64,000 nt of DNA from an uncultured Erysipelotrichaceae bacterium (GTDB taxonomy: Bacteria; Bacillota_I; Bacilli_A; Erysipelotrichales; Erysipelotrichaceae). Position numbers and translations under genes: made by a program. Every line of letters begins with the position of its first letter. Position 1 is the stretch's first letter. Below are positions 2,838 through 59,458 of this stretch, one piece after another. Below the pieces are notes generated by a model, which did no database searches, was not told the DNA's origin, and was given only the letters and a program-made list of their open reading frames with translations. The stretch is from contig CAMVGT010000005.1 of assembly GCA_947167125.1 (NCBI GenBank), positions 1 through 64,000 on the forward strand, read 5' to 3'.

Positions 2838-5800
2838 ATGAAACTGTTCAGAAGAATAGCACTCAGCTTTCTGTCCGCAGCCATGACTGCTTCCCTCGGG
2901 ATGACAGCAGTCAGAGCTGAAGAAAACGCTGTCACCGTCACCGGTGACGAGGCGATGGAACTCGCTGAAGTTCCTGCCGCAGTCAAAGACATCATCAAAG
3001 TTGAAGACACCACAGTCACAATCGATGGTGCAGACGCATGGACAGATCTCAACGTCGGAACACCCGGCAATCTTGAACTGGCCGACAATAATTACGTCAC
3101 CGGCTGGTCCTACTATTACATGATGGAACTGACTTCCTGGGTCAAGCAGCTTGAAAAGGCTCTGGAAGGCACAGAAGTCACAGCCATCCATTACAACGGC
3201 ACAGACACAGTCATCAGCAAAACATATCTTGACGATCTGAATGAACTGCTCGACAAGCTCAACAGCTTCGACAGATCCCTGAAGATCAGATATGACTTCG
3301 AAAAGACCACCAGCAATTACATCGCAGAAAACGGCAGTGCTCAGCTGAAGTTCCATGTGCAGACAAACGGCTACTGGGGCTATGACCTGGCAGGTGATTC
3401 CATCATTGACAAAGTCACCGGCGAACCCGGCGGCTACATGGAAAACCAGCAGCTCAACAACAAATATGCAAACTTCTTCGTCGTTGACATGACTGAAAAG
3501 TTTGAAAACATGTATATTCTCAACGACACAGATCTTCAGAATCCTGTTCTCTACATGGATGAGAAGGAAGCGTTCCTTGTCGACGTGGATTTCCGCGGCG
3601 GCGAAACATTCCATCAGCTGATTAAGGATATGGTCGGTGACAGAGATCTGTATATCTATATCACCCATGCCCATGGCGATCATTACAACAACCTCGAATT
3701 CTTTGAAGCTGAAGACATGAAGGGCCTCTACTTCGGCAAGAACGAAGCTCTGCCGAGAGCTGAATGGTTCGCTAAGTTCAATGACCTTGTCATTCCGTTT
3801 GAAGACGGCATGAAGATTGAACGCGCCGGCAAGGAATTCGAAGTCATCGAAATGAACAACCACACAAGCGGCGGCTCCCAGCTGCTCGATATCACTGACA
3901 GAATCCTGCTGTCCGGCGATACCCTCGGTGCCCAGACCTTCAAGGGCGGCACAACTGTCGGCCTTTCCGCTGTGGACAACTGGATTGCCCAGTTTGATCA
4001 TTCCATCGAAGTTCTGAAGCTCGGCACGGATGAAAGAAGATGCGATTACATCATCGGCGGCCACACCGCTTATCTCAATACATGGGAATTTGAGATGTGG
4101 GTCTACCAGGCACTCCTGGCAGCACAGGAGAAGGGACCTTCCGCCACCACACTCAACCCGATCGGCCAGAACACCATCGTCGTCAGAGACGGCAAAGTGC
4201 TCAGCGCTGAAGAAAACCTTGCCTGCTTCCTGAACGGCACCCCGGTACCGGCCATCTCCGATGAGGAAGTCATGCATACAGCTTCCATCAATGTCCGCAA
4301 TGATTCCATCGTCACAAAGGATGAGAAGTATCCGAATGTCTATCACTACACAACAAAGAGAGTGACAGACGAATACTCCGAAAACTTCTACAACGCAGCC
4401 TATATCATCTACGCTGACGGCGCTCTCAATGAAGCCAAAGCTTCCAAGCTGCTCAAGGATCTCGGCGCTGACGCCAACATGGACAAGTACGGCTGGAACG
4501 CCCTTGTTGTCGCTCCGCTCGGTGAAGAATACACAGAAGACGATCTCAAACTCTACACGGACGCCCTCATTGACATGAGCGGTTCCATGTTCGGTCTCAA
4601 GATTGTCGGTGTCGGCAAAGGCGCGGACTTCGTCAACGAATACATCACAAAGAAAGATTTCGCTGTCTCCGGCTATCTGACCATTGACGCAGAGAATGAA
4701 GGCGAATACGGCGATATTCCTGCCTATGTCACAGCAACAGAGAAAGAAACCCTGGCTGAAGCGTTCGCGAACGGCTGGAAGGAAGCTCTCTCCAAAACCA
4801 TGAAGCTCGGCAATATCGGCGCCACATTCTACACACAGCCCGCTTCAAAAGAAAGACCTTACGAATTCGTTCCGTGGACCGAAAGCGAAGTCCTCGGCTT
4901 TACAAGAAATGTCGTCAAGGAAGACCTCGACGGCGACGGCGCTGACAGCCTGTGGTATGAATACATCCCTGCCACCGCTTCCAAAGAAGAAGGCAGCGCT
5001 CCGATGGTTCTCTTACTCCATGGCAACACCAATGATCCGAGAACACAGTTTGAAACCAGCGGCTGGGCACAGCTTGCGGCAAAAGAAGGCATTATCCTGA
5101 TTGAACCTGAATGGCAGGGCACAAGCTGGGGCGCCGATCCGATGACAGAGAACGACTCCACCACAAGGGAAAACGACATCATCACAATGCTTGAGAAGGT
5201 CTTCGAAAAGTATCCTCAGATTGATCAGAGCAGAGTCTATGTCGAAGGTCTCTCCAGAGGCTCCCTCAATACAATGGATCTTCTTCTGACTCATCCGGAA
5301 ATCTTTGCGGGCGGCGGATCTCATTCCGGTGCGGTGATCGGTGATCTGATGAGTGCAGATGATTTCACAGACATCATCAAAGAAGAAAAAGATCAGTATG
5401 ATATGCCTTGGTTCTTCATCGCCGGAACGCAGGATGGATTTGTACCTGTTTCTGAAAAAGGCGCTGAAAAGAGCGGCGTACTGCAGGCACTGAATCTCTT
5501 TGAAGAACTCAATGAAATGGGTCATACAGAGTATGCGGATCTTGATGAAAGCAAAGTTGAATGGTTCGGCTTCACACAGATGAAAGACTTCGGTGAAGTT
5601 GAGAATTCCGGAAGCCTGACCGTAAAGGGCGGCACAATCAGAAACGACGCAGATATTCCGATGCTTTCCTTCAATGCGATTGAAAACTGGGGACACTGGA
5701 ACTATCCGGCTTCCGCGGAACTGATGTGGAACTTCCTGAAGCATTATTCAAGAGACACTGAAACCGGAGCTCTGAACTATGACGGTCTGACAATCAGCAG

Positions 5801-6533
5801 AACTGAAGCTGAGATCCCGACCAGAACGACACTGAAGCTGAGCGCTACAAAACCTGTCACATGGACATCCTCCGATGAATCCATCGCAGCAGTCGATGAA
5901 AACGGTCTTGTCACAGCACTGAGATATGGTAAAGTCACAATCACAGCGACAGCCGAAGACGGTGAAACAGCCACATGCGAAGTCCAGACAAGATACTATG
6001 ACGTCAATGATGACAGTAAGTATTACTGGACACCTGTCTACTGGGCAGCTGACAATGCAATCACAAAGGGATATGACAATGTCTTCTTCGGTCCTGAAAG
6101 AAACTGCACCAGAGAAGCAGTCGTCACATTCCTGTGGAGACTTGCCGGCAAGCCGGAACCGCAGACAACAACAAATCCGTTCAGCGATGTATCTGCCAAT
6201 AAGTACTACTACAAGGCAGTGCTGTGGGCAGCAGAGAACGGAATCACAAAGGGATATAAGGACGGCACATTCAGACCGGATGAAACATGCTTAAGAGAAC
6301 ATGTAGTCACATTCCTCTACCGTTTCGCAGGTTCACCGGATGTGAAAACAACAGTCAACCCGTTCAACGATGTGAAGCGCAGCGATTACTACTACAGAGC
6401 ATCTGTATGGGCTAATCAGGAAGGCATCGCAAAGGGCTATTCCGAAGGCGAACATGCCGGCGGATTCGGACCGAAGCTTGACTGCTTAAGAGAACACGTC
6501 GTTACATTCCTTTACCGATTCGATACAAAATAA
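2838..6533 (+). CDS. Secreted SLH-anchored fusion of a metallo-hydrolase and an alpha/beta-hydrolase
   Basis: An AGGAGG site 10 nt upstream selects the ATG at 2838, giving 1231 residues with a signal peptide (cleavage probably after VRA, near residue 28). Domains in order: a metallo-beta-lactamase fold with HAHGDH at residues 277-282, a later NHTSGGS, LSGDT and GGHT; a middle region of unclear fold; an alpha/beta-hydrolase with LLHGN, nucleophile elbow GLSRGS (Ser ~806), Asp ~866 in GTQDGF and His ~953 in NWGHW; one Big_2-like Ig domain (about 984-1050); and three SLH repeats (about 1055-1231). Both catalytic sets look intact. The protein should be displayed on the cell wall and act on external substrates, perhaps esters or sulfated/phosphorylated compounds, but no substrate can be read from sequence. 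It lies next to divergent RpiR-like regulators. Confidence 0.85.
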   Translation: MKLFRRIALSFLSAAMTASLGMTAVRAEENAVTVTGDEAMELAEVPAAVKDIIKVEDTTVTIDGADAWTDLNVGTPGNLELADNNYVTGWSYYYMMELTSWVKQLEKALEGTEVTAIHYNGTDTVISKTYLDDLNELLDKLNSFDRSLKIRYDFEKTTSNYIAENGSAQLKFHVQTNGYWGYDLAGDSIIDKVTGEPGGYMENQQLNNKYANFFVVDMTEKFENMYILNDTDLQNPVLYMDEKEAFLVDVDFRGGETFHQLIKDMVGDRDLYIYITHAHGDHYNNLEFFEAEDMKGLYFGKNEALPRAEWFAKFNDLVIPFEDGMKIERAGKEFEVIEMNNHTSGGSQLLDITDRILLSGDTLGAQTFKGGTTVGLSAVDNWIAQFDHSIEVLKLGTDERRCDYIIGGHTAYLNTWEFEMWVYQALLAAQEKGPSATTLNPIGQNTIVVRDGKVLSAEENLACFLNGTPVPAISDEEVMHTASINVRNDSIVTKDEKYPNVYHYTTKRVTDEYSENFYNAAYIIYADGALNEAKASKLLKDLGADANMDKYGWNALVVAPLGEEYTEDDLKLYTDALIDMSGSMFGLKIVGVGKGADFVNEYITKKDFAVSGYLTIDAENEGEYGDIPAYVTATEKETLAEAFANGWKEALSKTMKLGNIGATFYTQPASKERPYEFVPWTESEVLGFTRNVVKEDLDGDGADSLWYEYIPATASKEEGSAPMVLLLHGNTNDPRTQFETSGWAQLAAKEGIILIEPEWQGTSWGADPMTENDSTTRENDIITMLEKVFEKYPQIDQSRVYVEGLSRGSLNTMDLLLTHPEIFAGGGSHSGAVIGDLMSADDFTDIIKEEKDQYDMPWFFIAGTQDGFVPVSEKGAEKSGVLQALNLFEELNEMGHTEYADLDESKVEWFGFTQMKDFGEVENSGSLTVKGGTIRNDADIPMLSFNAIENWGHWNYPASAELMWNFLKHYSRDTETGALNYDGLTISRTEAEIPTRTTLKLSATKPVTWTSSDESIAAVDENGLVTALRYGKVTITATAEDGETATCEVQTRYYDVNDDSKYYWTPVYWAADNAITKGYDNVFFGPERNCTREAVVTFLWRLAGKPEPQTTTNPFSDVSANKYYYKAVLWAAENGITKGYKDGTFRPDETCLREHVVTFLYRFAGSPDVKTTVNPFNDVKRSDYYYRASVWANQEGIAKGYSEGEHAGGFGPKLDCLREHVVTFLYRFDTK

Positions 6534-6567
6534 GGAAACTGACGGTATCTTTCGATTCCAATATGAA

Positions 6568-8513: not shown

Positions 8514-9848
8514 ATGGCTGATAATAAAAACAAGATCTTTATGGGCGGTTTGTTCGCGGCTGCCGTTATTCTTGGCCTGCTCGCCGGAAACAGCGGAAAA
8601 ACACTTGCCCCTCAGGGCGGATCTTCCGCAGACGCCGGCAAAACCGAAGAACCGGAACAGGGTTCTTCTGAAACAGCAGTTCCCGAAGAAACAGCGGCTG
8701 CAGTGACTGTCGCTGAAAAAGGAACCGGAATCACAGTCACAAAAGCAGATGACTGGTCTTCACAGTTCCCGAATCAGTATGAAACATACATGCTGAACAA
8801 TGAAAACAGCGAAGTTCATGAATATACAGAAGAACATCCGTATATTCAGCGTATCTATGCAGGCTACGGTTTTGCGAAATCCTACGGTTCCGCAAGAGGC
8901 CATACCTATGTCATTACCGATCTGACATCAACCGGAAGACCGCATAAACTGGCAAACTGCTTCACCTGCAAGACTTCCGACTTCACAGCCAAAGCTCTGA
9001 ACGAGGGTGATTCCGCCTATGCGGAAGCGTTTGAGGATTTCGTTGATCAGATCACCGATCCGTTCGGCTGCTTCCACTGCCATTCCAACGAACCGGGCAA
9101 GATGTATGTCACACATACCTATCTGTCTGATGCGCTGGGAAGCGATCTGACCAAGATCGACGCAGCTACACTTTCCTGCGGACAGTGCCATTCCGAATAC
9201 TATTTCGATCCTGCCACAAAGGCGACAACATTCGCATATACAAGTCTTGCCGGCATGAATCCGGATGACATGCTTGCTTATGAAAACGCGCTCGTCGACG
9301 GCGAAGGAAATATGTTCGCTGACTGGGTGGATGAGGAAAACGGAATCCGCAAGCTCAAGGTTCAGCATCCTGAATTCGAAACCATCAACGGCGAAGGTTC
9401 CCCGCACGGCTCCAGCTCCAGCATGCTGAAACTGTCATGCGCTGACTGCCATATGGGACAGACCAAAGCTGATGACGGTACAACATTCACAAACCACAAC
9501 TGGACAAGCCCGCTTGACAATCAGGCGCTTCTTGACAGCAACTGCTCACAGTGCCACAAGGATCTTGCAGCAGAAGTTGAAAAGACACAGTCTGAATACT
9601 GGACAAGAGTTGACGCGCTTGCCGAACAGCTCAAGGGACTGAACGATGATCTGACCGCTGCCATCAACGACGGAAAGATCGCGGATGACAAACTGGATGA
9701 AGTCCGCCTCACACTGAGAAACGCACAGTGGTACTGGGATTTCGTATTTGTCGAAAATTCCAATGGCGTTCACAACCCGACTCTTACAAAACACTGCCTC
9801 GATCAGGCTGAAGAGCTGATGGGTCAGGCAGCACAGCTGATGCAGTAA
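8514..9848 (+). CDS. nrfA: Pentaheme ammonia-forming nitrite reductase NrfA
   Basis: Cytochrome c nitrite reductase, a six-electron reduction of nitrite to ammonium outside the cytoplasmic membrane. Five heme sites are visible: CFTCK (149-153), with the lysine-ligated active-site heme diagnostic of NrfA, then CFHCH (186-190), CGQCH (222-226), CADCH (309-313) and CSQCH (344-348). QCHSEYYF and HPEFE followed by a His-Gly motif match the catalytic Tyr and His regions. Residues 9-25 form a membrane anchor or signal peptide, followed by an Ala/Glu/Ser-rich linker to about residue 75. No NrfH quinol dehydrogenase gene is adjacent; instead the cytochrome c assembly genes follow, supporting a real c-type cytochrome. 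AGAGGTG serves as ribosome-binding site. Confidence 0.92.
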   Translation: MADNKNKIFMGGLFAAAVILGLLAGNSGKTLAPQGGSSADAGKTEEPEQGSSETAVPEETAAAVTVAEKGTGITVTKADDWSSQFPNQYETYMLNNENSEVHEYTEEHPYIQRIYAGYGFAKSYGSARGHTYVITDLTSTGRPHKLANCFTCKTSDFTAKALNEGDSAYAEAFEDFVDQITDPFGCFHCHSNEPGKMYVTHTYLSDALGSDLTKIDAATLSCGQCHSEYYFDPATKATTFAYTSLAGMNPDDMLAYENALVDGEGNMFADWVDEENGIRKLKVQHPEFETINGEGSPHGSSSSMLKLSCADCHMGQTKADDGTTFTNHNWTSPLDNQALLDSNCSQCHKDLAAEVEKTQSEYWTRVDALAEQLKGLNDDLTAAINDGKIADDKLDEVRLTLRNAQWYWDFVFVENSNGVHNPTLTKHCLDQAEELMGQAAQLMQ

Positions 9849-16188: not shown

Positions 16189-17967
16189 ATGAGTATGAAA
16201 AAGTTCATGGCTTCTGCCCTGGCTCTCGCTCTGCTCGCCGGATGCTCTTCCAGCACACCGAGCGGCAGTACCGACACAGACGGCGGAAACACCGAAGGTG
16301 AAGCGTTTGAATCAACACTTTACCCCACACCGGAAGGAGTAACATATACTGCTTCCTCCACAAACGCAGCTGCGCCTGACTGGGCAAAGTATGATGAGCT
16401 CGTTGATCAGATCAGAACAACTCTCGATATGGATGAGCGTGTATCACTCATGCACCAGGCTGAAGACATTCTGATGGGAACAGCAGCTGTCATTCCTCTG
16501 TATTACTACAACGATACTTTCATGCAGAAGACAGACGTAGACGGAATCTACTCCAACGTCTTCGGCAACAAGTTCTTCATGTTCGCGACAACACCGCGTG
16601 ACACACTGAAGGTCAACCTCGCTTCCGAACCGGATAAGATTGACCCGGCTCTGAATACATCCGTTGACGGCGCTTGCCTTGATGTCAACCTGTTCTCCGG
16701 TCTCTACACATATGACAAGAACGGACAGCTGACACCGGACAGCCTGGATCATGAAAATCCTTATGAAGTTTCTGAAGACGGTCTGACATATACATTCCAT
16801 CTGCAGGACGGTCTGAAGTGGTCCGACGGCTCCGCTCTGACAATGAATGACTTCGCTTATGCATGGAACCGTGCAGTTGATCCTGCAACAGGAGCTGACT
16901 ACGAATACATGTATGCTCCGATCGCCGGCTACAGCGAAGGCGCTCTGAAGATCGAAGTTGTTGACGATCTGACAATGACAGTTGAGCTGGTTGCACCGTG
17001 TGCATACTTCCTCGACCTCATGGCATTCCCGGCATTCTTCCCGGTTAAGAAGGATGTTGTTGAAGGCGCTGAAGGCTTCGCAGATAACCCTGGCGCATGG
17101 GCTACAGAAGCAGGCTTCGTTTCCAACGGTGCTTACACTCTGGATTCCTGGACACATGGCGAATCCATGGTCTTCAAGAAGAACCCGAACTACTACAGAG
17201 CTGATGAAGTTACTGTAGAGACAATCAACTTCATGCTTTCTGCTGATGACACAGCAATCTTCGCTGCATTCCAGGCAGGCGACCTCGACTTCGCTGACTC
17301 CGTTCCGACAAACGAAATCGCTTCCGTCAAGGACACTCCGGAATTCCATGTCATCGACAACCTCGGCACATACTATGCATGCTTCAACGTCAACAGCCCG
17401 ATTTTCGAAGGCAAGACAGTTGATCAGGCAATCGCTATGAGAAAGGCATTCTCCCTGCTCATCGACCGTCAGTACATCGTTGACACAGTAGGCCAGACAG
17501 GCCAGCTGGTCGCTACTTCCTACCTGCCTGCAGGTATGGCTGACGGCAACGGCGGAACATTCAAAGATGCTTCCGGCTGGAAGTATCCGGATGGATCCGA
17601 TGGATACTATCCTGCAGAAGTAACAGATACAGCTGTTGAAGAAGCACGCAAGCTTCTTGAATACGCAGGCTTCACATTCGGTGAAGACGGCAAGCTCTCT
17701 GCAGATACACCGATCAACATCACATACCTGACAAATGAGTCCTCCGGACATGTCGCTGCAGCTGAATCCATGCAGCAGGACTTCTCCGAAGTAGGCATCA
17801 ACATGGAAATCAAGCAGGAAGACTGGAACGTATTCCTGACAGACCGTAAGAACGGCAACTATGACTTCGCTCGTGAAGGCTGGCTCGCTGACTTCAACGA
17901 TCCGATCAACATGATTGAAATGTTCGCTTCCTATTCCGGAAACAACGATCCGCAGTTCGGAAAATAA
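16189..17967 (+). CDS. oppA: Oligopeptide-binding lipoprotein OppA, apparently circularly permuted
   Basis: Extracellular peptide-binding protein of the upstream Opp transporter, 592 residues, with a lipobox LLAGC (Cys19 lipidation) and AAGGAGGG ribosome-binding site. In this family (SBP_bac_5), the mature start resembles LKVNLASEPDKIDPALN and the end is a helix-rich segment after GNNDPQF. Here LKVNLASEPDK begins only at about residue 140. The usual C-terminal segment (DWAKYDELVDQI... AEDILMGTAAVIPLYYYND, about residues 64-133) sits directly after the signal peptide, and the protein stops at GNNDPQFGK. The order is therefore rotated relative to the family. The second OppA here (34765-37074) has the normal order. 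All core parts seem present, so it may be functional. Confidence 0.88.
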   Translation: MSMKKFMASALALALLAGCSSSTPSGSTDTDGGNTEGEAFESTLYPTPEGVTYTASSTNAAAPDWAKYDELVDQIRTTLDMDERVSLMHQAEDILMGTAAVIPLYYYNDTFMQKTDVDGIYSNVFGNKFFMFATTPRDTLKVNLASEPDKIDPALNTSVDGACLDVNLFSGLYTYDKNGQLTPDSLDHENPYEVSEDGLTYTFHLQDGLKWSDGSALTMNDFAYAWNRAVDPATGADYEYMYAPIAGYSEGALKIEVVDDLTMTVELVAPCAYFLDLMAFPAFFPVKKDVVEGAEGFADNPGAWATEAGFVSNGAYTLDSWTHGESMVFKKNPNYYRADEVTVETINFMLSADDTAIFAAFQAGDLDFADSVPTNEIASVKDTPEFHVIDNLGTYYACFNVNSPIFEGKTVDQAIAMRKAFSLLIDRQYIVDTVGQTGQLVATSYLPAGMADGNGGTFKDASGWKYPDGSDGYYPAEVTDTAVEEARKLLEYAGFTFGEDGKLSADTPINITYLTNESSGHVAAAESMQQDFSEVGINMEIKQEDWNVFLTDRKNGNYDFAREGWLADFNDPINMIEMFASYSGNNDPQFGK

Positions 17968-57424: not shown

Positions 57425-59458
57425 TTACTGCTCAGCCGGTTCGAAATCGTCTCTTCCGTGCTTGCAGATGGGGCACTGATAATCAGCGGGGAGCTCATCG
57501 CCTTCAAACGGTTCAAAGTAGCCGCAGATCTTGCAGATGAATCCCTTTTTCTTTGTGACGGTCACAGCCGGTACATATTCAAACGCATCCTTGCCGTGCT
57601 TGCAGAGCGGACATACATAATCATCCGGCAGATCATGTCCTTCGACAAAGTATCCGCAGATGGTGCATCTCCAGCCTTCCTTCTGCTCATCGGCAGCCGG
57701 CTGTTTCTTCGGCTTGATGTGGGCATGGTAGTAAGCATAGGTTGCGCTCGGCGCATTGGAGAGAACCTTTGCCTCAGTGACATTGGCAATGAACAGGGTG
57801 GAAACACCGAGATCGATTGCCTGAATGACTTCGCATCCGAATACAGCATTTGTAAACTGCGGGATATAGCGGATGCCGTTTGCCAGTCTGTCATTGTATG
57901 TGACATCCGCAAACTTGTCGGTATCTCTTCCGGACTGGAATCCGAAATGCTTGAAGAGATCGAACGGCGCGTCTTCTGTCAGAACGGAAACGTTGAACTT
58001 TCCGGCCTTCTTGATGATGTCGGCTGTGTTGTTTTTGTTAATTACGGATACAGCGACTTTCTTCAGATCGCCTTCGGAAACCTGGGCGGCACTGTTGATG
58101 ACGCATCCGTAGTCTTTGCCGTCAAGCTGCGAAGTCAGAATCTCAAGGCCATAGCTGAATTTGAAGAAGGCAGTCGGATCGACGTCTGCTTCCGCTTTGA
58201 CAACCGGTGCCGGTGCAGCAGCCTGAGCAGGTGCTTCTTCCTTCTTTGCGAAATAACCCGGATTGATATCCATCGCGATGGCGTCAGCCAGTGCGTCAAG
58301 TTCAGCAAGTGTGCCTTCCTTGACAGCGGATTTGATTGTGACAGGTTCCTGGATGAATTCTGTGCCCGGCAGTTTGGCAAGAAGCTCTTTCATGAGCTTG
58401 CCGCTCATCGGACCCCAGGATCCGTTTTCAAGAAGGGCAACCTTGCGGTTCTTCAGGGAGTGGGCAACGATGTCATGGAGCAGATTTTCCATGGTGACAA
58501 AGATGCCTGCGTTATATGTTGTGGCCGCAAAGACAAGGTGTGAATTGCGGAATGCGCTTGCGACGATATAGCTTGCCGGAATGACGGATGTGTCGAACAT
58601 CTCAACCGGTACGCCGCGGTCGGACAGCTTGCCGGCCAGGATGTTTGCCATATTCTCTGTATGGCCGTATACGCTTGCGTAGGCAAGGCAGACGCCTTTG
58701 ACTTCCGGTGTATAGGTGCTCCACTGATTGTATTTCTCAAGGAAGTCGCCGAAATGCTTTCTCCACACAAAGCCATGCAGAGGGCAGACATATTTAATGT
58801 CGAGCGCAGCTGCTTTCTTCAGAACCATCTGAACCTGCGGACCGTATTTGCCGACGATGTTTGTGTAGTATCTTCTTGCCTCATCGAGCCAGTCGTGCAT
58901 GAAGTCAACTTCATCCGCGAAGATTCTGCCGTTCAATGCGCCGAATGTGCCGAACGCGTCAGCGGTGAAGAGGATGCCGTCTGTTTTGTCATAGGACATC
59001 ATGACCTCAGGCCAATGGACCATCGGTGCGTTGATGAATGTCAGTTCATGTTTTCCGGTATTGAGGACATCGCCTTCCTTGACAACCTGAATTCTGTCAT
59101 TCATGTCATAATCGAAATACTGCGCCAGCATCGTCTTGATTTTCGCGTTGCAGATGATGGCTGTATCGGGATATCTGTAAATCAGATCTTCGATGGTTGC
59201 CGCATGGTCCGGTTCCATGTGATGGATGACCAGATAGTCCAGTTTTCTGCCGTTCAGACCGTATGCCACATTGTCAAAGAATGTATGGGCAACAGCCTTG
59301 TCGACTGTATCGAACAGAACAGTCTTTTCATCCAGAAGCAGATAGGAGTTGTAGGAGACGCCGTTGGGAACGCCGTAGACGCCTTCAAAACAAGAAAGTC
59401 TTCTGTCATCAGCGCCTGTCCAGATCAGGTCGCTGAGGATTTGCTTAGTGCAATGCAT
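57425..59458 (-). CDS. Flavodiiron protein with flavin-reductase-like and two rubredoxin domains
   Basis: Reduces O2 to water and/or NO to N2O in anaerobes. The 677-residue chain has: a metallo-beta-lactamase-like diiron domain (HMEPDH near 80, MVHWPEV, FTADAF, PLHGF); a flavodoxin domain binding FMN (YASVYGHTENMA near 262; TYNAG; ENGSWGP); an Ala/Pro/Lys linker near 405-425; a flavin-reductase-like split-barrel domain (about 428-575); and two short rubredoxin domains, CTICGY...CPLC and CKICGY...CPIC. The rubredoxins would pass electrons to the flavin, making the protein largely self-contained. GGAGG 8 nt before ATG 59458. It lies between two GH1 genes transcribed oppositely. Confidence 0.92.
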   Translation of the reverse strand: MHCTKQILSDLIWTGADDRRLSCFEGVYGVPNGVSYNSYLLLDEKTVLFDTVDKAVAHTFFDNVAYGLNGRKLDYLVIHHMEPDHAATIEDLIYRYPDTAIICNAKIKTMLAQYFDYDMNDRIQVVKEGDVLNTGKHELTFINAPMVHWPEVMMSYDKTDGILFTADAFGTFGALNGRIFADEVDFMHDWLDEARRYYTNIVGKYGPQVQMVLKKAAALDIKYVCPLHGFVWRKHFGDFLEKYNQWSTYTPEVKGVCLAYASVYGHTENMANILAGKLSDRGVPVEMFDTSVIPASYIVASAFRNSHLVFAATTYNAGIFVTMENLLHDIVAHSLKNRKVALLENGSWGPMSGKLMKELLAKLPGTEFIQEPVTIKSAVKEGTLAELDALADAIAMDINPGYFAKKEEAPAQAAAPAPVVKAEADVDPTAFFKFSYGLEILTSQLDGKDYGCVINSAAQVSEGDLKKVAVSVINKNNTADIIKKAGKFNVSVLTEDAPFDLFKHFGFQSGRDTDKFADVTYNDRLANGIRYIPQFTNAVFGCEVIQAIDLGVSTLFIANVTEAKVLSNAPSATYAYYHAHIKPKKQPAADEQKEGWRCTICGYFVEGHDLPDDYVCPLCKHGKDAFEYVPAVTVTKKKGFICKICGYFEPFEGDELPADYQCPICKHGRDDFEPAEQ

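Follow-up and report, generated by a model that had tools for sequence, protein, structure and literature searches.

Is a secreted bacterial chain that joins a metallo-β-lactamase (MBL)-fold hydrolase to a serine esterase an accident of one genome, or does it represent a recurrent combination with a function of its own? The question is raised by a gene in the window, the stretch of 64,000 nucleotides from an uncultured Erysipelotrichaceae bacterium, a gut dweller of rumen type, that was analysed here, and it is answered below from the protein, its relatives and its neighbours.

Module layout and active sites

The gene spans positions 2838−6533 of the forward strand as a single unbroken frame of 1231 residues, in agreement with the original prediction of one secreted chain, and it looks monocistronic; its ATG (2838) is placed 10 nt past a likely ribosome-binding site, AGGAGG, read directly at 2822−2827 (+), and a terminator-like stem-loop, a consensus match only, lies at 6565−6597 (+). 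All modules are encoded on the same strand: a signal peptide judged by eye, with an approximate end at 2918 (2838−2918); a conserved N-terminal domain (Nt, residues 28−215, 2919−3482); the MBL-fold hydrolase domain, termed type A (residues 216−460, 3483−4217); a middle domain that travels with the esterase (mid, residues 506−690, 4353−4907); a CE1/PHB-depolymerase-like esterase (CE1, residues 691−985, 4908−5792); a Big_2 Ig-like domain (5805−5984); and an SLH cell-wall anchor (5985−6530). Pfam, over its curated cut-offs, detected Lactamase_B (272−365, 1.7e-6), Peptidase_S9 (744−854, 4.1e-7), Esterase_PHB (709−848, 1.1e-5), Big_2 (1003−1049) and three C-terminal SLH stretches, which together with the by-eye signal peptide qualify the product as an SLH-anchored surface protein. 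Thus the predicted series of domains, closing with Big_2 and three SLH repeats, was found in place, except that residues 28−215 had been left unseparated and are an extra conserved domain; as for the middle region first delimited as 430−700, the part from about 506 to 690 indeed has no Pfam family, and residues 461−505 are a linker.

Regarding the MBL domain, the predicted HxHxDH metal site is complete, and all seven ligands are present (H277, H279, D281, H282, H342, D361 and H409); the match to PF00753 scores 28.6 bits against a gathering threshold of 22.7, and the domain is probably di-metal. In the type A-profile alignment, which includes some cross-hits from a second MBL (type B) that is homologous to type A (98.5%), the rows covering each site hold HxHxDH in 30/30, the third His in 29/29, the Asp in 29/29 and the last His in 19/19; in the type B-profile alignment, Gln replaces the third His in one of 28 rows. 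Rows gapped at the active sites represent the ends of domains, or hits that cross from one MBL profile to the other. Nt always stands before the type A MBL where it is found, its invariant positions include FH and WGY, and no Pfam family covers it in the nine rows scanned.

Among the NCBIfam models, no curated MBL subfamily cut-off is reached by the window protein, which scores 26.3 bits against 100 for class B β-lactamases (NF012229) and 20.4 against 200.8 for hydroxyacylglutathione hydrolase (TIGR03413). The PDB profile search gave weak matches for type A, the best being a chain named β-lactamase (E 1.3e-4), with a further weak match to glyoxalase-like structures; for type B, the closest relatives with a solved structure are hydroxyacylglutathione hydrolases, which are thioesterases.

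The esterase has the complete Ser-Asp-His triad that had been predicted (S806, D866 and H953), together with HGN at 728−730, and the triad is unvaried in the rows covering it (Ser 32/32, Asp 27/27 and His 24/24). It belongs to the PHB depolymerase/CE1-like esterases by PF10503 (25.2 against 23 bits) and PF00326 (30.1 against 22.6 bits), and no NCBIfam esterase cut-off is reached: the score is 91.8 against 150 bits for the extracellular scl-PHA depolymerases of type 1 (NF050058) and 67.2 against 107.85 bits for the PHB depolymerase family esterases (TIGR01840). From the PDB and NCBIfam searches, its nearest relatives are acetylxylan and feruloyl esterases, and it is also near extracellular PHA depolymerases.

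Mid is always followed by CE1 where it is found, and the domain search of the middle region returned no Pfam family and no PDB match for it (best E 1.4). It carries a G-x-[G/D]-x-G pattern whose variable position is Gly in 17 and Asp in seven of the 24 covering rows, never Ser. This pattern might be that of a dead α/β hydrolase, a reading we do not adopt: the profile comparison of mid with CE1 indicated no kinship (probability 0.4%) and a PDB match was absent. AlphaFold models of Nt-MBL (mean pLDDT 41.3) and mid-CE1 (42.3), based on rows from the window and the related loci L012 and L013 (see below) only, were discarded.

The known folds and the two unassigned domains form a real, conserved combination outside every curated family searched; Pfam and NCBIfam hold no family with this architecture, as had been anticipated. 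A literature search of titles and abstracts found no MBL-esterase-SLH multidomain fusion, nothing on an MBL with an esterase in Clostridium ramosum, and nothing tying RpiR to metallo-β-lactamases in Erysipelotrichaceae.

Relatives, regulators and partner exchange

A scan of public genomes found two loci related to the window gene, L012 from RUG12097, an uncultured Erysipelotrichaceae, and L013 from Erysipelotrichaceae S24M_St_67, with best-segment identities of 96% and 74%, respectively. A search of 315 genomes of the order with the window as query gave matches (E up to 1e-8) in at least 56, such counts being lower bounds because scoring was limited to two candidates per genome. The type A profile placed Nt-MBL in 18 of the 315 genomes and in 11 of 79 genera of the order; in a sample of 392 genomes of the phylum there were four matches at 1e-15, namely three type A proteins, all from the same order as the window genome, and a type B cross-match (G102). 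Viral contigs held no relative of either half of the protein, and four plasmid records matched the CE1 part only, with at most 34.4% identity.

Among the relatives surveyed, the exact module order NtMBL-mid-CE1-Big2-SLH occurs in the window's own genome only. L012 has this order with an SGNH esterase inserted ahead of Big2; L013 reads mid-CE1-NtMBL, a swap that perhaps reflects an extra mid-CE1 copy, and not a true permutation, because the frame runs off the contig; and L104, cut by its contig, is CBM48-esterase-NtMBL. No esterase was found in the NtMBL proteins of five loci (L063, L064, L105, L106 and L113), so the MBL does not need one; three loci have two NtMBL in one frame (L096, L100 and L109), and two have a type B MBL ahead of NtMBL (L097 and L098). 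The combination type B MBL-mid-CE1 is found in 12 loci of 11 genomes: L009, in the same genome as the window, where it is joined to two further CBM48-type esterases and SLH; L056, L057, L058, L062 (CE1 cut short) and L103; and, in a second family of the order, L101, L102, L107, L108, L110 and L086 (cut by its contig). Finally, L059 and L060 are SGNH-mid-CE1 without MBL, and mid-CE1 is alone in L061, L065−L068, L077 and L078. CBM48-esterase units are also present in L009 and L057. Besides SLH, the anchors are choline-binding repeats (L057, L058 and L060), an LPXTG-like tail and, for L064, a start that resembles a lipoprotein, the last two recognized by eye.

Accordingly, the pairing of MBL and esterase is recurrent, not accidental, and the fusion in the window is no one-off, while the esterase partner, the module order and the anchor vary between relatives.

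Upstream of the gene and divergent from it, two regulators are encoded on the reverse strand: R1 (1178−1978), for which Pfam names an RpiR HTH (PF01418), and R2 (1945−2685), which is RpiR-like by its similarity to the R2 set; the window R2 has no Pfam hit of its own, and that of L098 has an RpiR hit. Profiles of the two regulators, built on five or six loci, located both of them close to the type A gene in 15 of the 17 loci examined, the eighteenth type A genome (G039) being left out as a contig-edge fragment only. The nearest regulator lies within about 200 bp of the type A gene in 14 loci; in G574 the pair is about 3.3 kb off with two genes between, and G491 has no regulator pair near its type A gene. 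The regulator frames of L063 are short (125 and 172 aa), and the end of the locus truncates one of those in L096. Of the 11 type B loci, one (L103) has the pair; L056 is truncated on its upstream side, and for several others the upstream sequence extends over no more than 1.5−2.5 kb. The difference between 15/16 type A loci, a count that leaves aside G575, whose frame reaches the contig end, and 1/10 type B loci gave p 3e-5 by Fisher's test, with the kinship of loci ignored. The regulator pair is the most constant neighbour of the type A MBL; what is conserved is thus a surface MBL, probably regulated, that exchanges its esterase partners, and this Nt-MBL core with its regulators, rather than the single fusion, is the most interesting part of the locus. 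RpiR regulators commonly respond to sugar phosphates, which is a hint of a glycan-linked role.

Some other neighbours were recorded. In L013, a sulfatase gene (PF00884, 223−1764) is immediately upstream of the regulator pair; in the type B neighbourhoods of L101, L102, L108 and L110, an AraC-type-like gene with a cupin start, identified by eye, is located beside L102, L108 and L110. In the window, an SLH-ending frame at the contig start (114−1049, +) may be the final part of another surface protein. At 8514−11971 (+), in a genome of Erysipelotrichaceae type, a cytochrome c552 gene (NrfA-type, PF02335) precedes genes for ResB and cytochrome c assembly. The SBP_bac_5 oligopeptide-binding protein at 16189−17967 (+) is apparently circularly permuted, its Pfam match running from residue 192 to the end and its N-terminal ILM..AVIPLYYYND.. 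resembling, by eye, the usual C-terminal end of the family. At 57425−59473 (−), an ODP-type MBL flavoprotein combines flavin reductase and rubredoxin-like domains in a single chain.

Descent of the esterase and mosaic structure of the gene

The CE1 tree was built on 23 rows with at least 230 profile columns, excluding duplicate loci and partial rows, among them L062. A branch supported at 100/100 has all 14 MBL-fused rows together on the same side. These divide into a type A-fused group of three (100/99) and a less well supported type B-fused group of 11 (81/89), and the program warned of long branches meeting between the halves of the tree. We read this topology as mid-CE1 having kept an MBL partner through a change of MBL type; two separate MBL fusions may also have produced it.

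Pairwise dN/dS against L012 and L013 was 0.035−0.21 in every module compared (SLH is not comparable with L013), a sign of purifying selection, so no module appears to be decaying. Compared with L012 in 90-base steps, the window is 92−100% identical from 3697 to about 5300, 63−88% from there to the stop codon, and 82−98% over most of the next gene; the drop is sharp and falls within the CE1 coding region, just past the Ser806 codon, and synonymous divergence ranges from 0.06 in mid to 0.80 in SLH. On this comparison, the window gene is a mosaic relative to L012, and its downstream part, in which L012 has its extra SGNH domain, was probably exchanged.

Proposed function and comparison with known systems

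As for what the protein does, the likeliest reading, at about even odds, is a wall-anchored multicatalytic deacylase, whose MBL would cleave a carbon ester, thioester or lactone in the same material that the serine esterase attacks. The core would be the secreted Nt-MBL enzyme, probably under the two RpiR-type regulators, to which module exchange would have attached different serine esterases; the MBL domain would hydrolyse its carbon ester, thioester or lactone, CE1 would strip acyl or aryl ester groups off the same esterified material, and SLH would keep the chain at the cell surface. From the sequence we infer the metal content, both activities, the shared substrate, the regulation, the order of action, and cooperation of the domains as opposed to their co-display. 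The homology of types A and B, with thioesterases nearest to type B, favours this bond chemistry. Also counted for the deacylase are the unvaried ligands and triad in the relatives; the 14/14 MBL-fused CE1 rows beyond one branch, be the MBL type A or B; the chain partners of the MBL, which are esterases of different folds or further MBLs; and the acetylxylan and feruloyl esterases nearest to CE1 along with the regulator pair in 15/17 type A loci. Against it stand the type A proteins without esterase, the weak glyoxalase-like match and the lack of any curated subfamily cut-off reached.

A rather unlikely alternative is that the hydrolases share a secretion and anchoring unit without a common substrate, so that the fusion is a by-product of recombination that is frequent among surface proteins. 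Anchors and partners do vary freely, the gene is diverged from L012 in its 3′ half from about 5300, and other SLH proteins of the genome bear protease, CAP and LRR domains; however, the MBL is joined to esterases or another MBL, never to the proteases, CAP or LRR carried by those SLH proteins, and the CE1 branch stayed with an MBL in 14/14 rows. The same genome encodes two further multi-esterase SLH proteins, L009 and L131, the latter (974−7927, contig C9) being a 2318-aa SLH protein with several α/β-hydrolase and PF00756 esterase domains and two EstA_Ig_like domains. Eighteen SLH proteins were found, and the 16 others that were scanned showed no domain of a glycoside hydrolase at E up to 1e-5.

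It is less plausible still, indeed improbable, that the MBL attacks a phosphodiester or sulfate belonging to the wall or to a host glycan, in the way that pneumococcal Pce acts on teichoic phosphorylcholine, while the esterase removes other groups. Pce is a surface MBL enzyme with choline-binding anchors (PMC4929436), such repeats occur in L057, L058 and L060, and the sulfatase gene precedes the L013 regulators; yet no Pce chain appeared among the PDB profile hits (taken up to E 1 for type A and up to E 0.01 for type B), and the window protein is anchored by SLH, not by choline repeats. A defensive surface enzyme, either a quorum-signal lactonase or a β-lactamase, is very unlikely: type B weakly matches the AidB lactonase (6/7 members) and both MBL types the class B core models, but all these matches are far under the cut-offs (26−29 bits against 100−360 for the members shown), and linkage to RpiR and a CE1 esterase would not be expected.

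Returning to the deacylase, we suggest, tentatively, that Nt-MBL may constitute an undescribed family of metal-dependent surface deacylases with its own RpiR pair, a constant core whose swapped CE1, SGNH or CBM48-esterase partners would yield combined metallo- and serine esterases acting on a heavily esterified plant or host glycan conjugate. If this is true, surface ester removal in these gut bacteria pairs a metallo-hydrolase with serine esterases; we know of no MBL-fold carbohydrate esterase. The fixed regulator pair would offer a direct way to the substrate, via what relieves or triggers it, and the locus clearly illustrates how enzymes evolve by the exchange of modules, one core being combined with its partners in several ways.

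Among the known systems, GloB, the glyoxalase II-type MBL, has the identical ligand set and provides the nearest solved relatives of type B; in contrast, the window protein is secreted, bears the Nt domain and attains 20.4 of the 200.8 bits required. The NF050058 and TIGR01840 esterases resemble residues 707−873 and share the Ser-Asp-His triad and secretion, whereas the window protein scores below both cut-offs and has the extra middle domain. Pce/CbpE, the teichoic acid phosphorylcholine esterase, is likewise a modular, surface-anchored MBL-fold hydrolase of a Gram-positive bacterium, with a choline-binding anchor; it differs in acting on phosphorylcholine and, in the excerpt of its description (PMC4929436), in having no serine esterase. 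Finally, DmCE1B of Dysgonomonas mossii is, as described (PMC8040265), a multidomain CE1 esterase with two serine esterase domains and no MBL; it resembles the window protein as one secreted chain with several esterase domains and the CE1 Ser-His-Asp triad, and it shares CBM48-esterase units with the relatives L009 and L057, while the window protein adds the MBL, the two unassigned domains and the SLH anchor.
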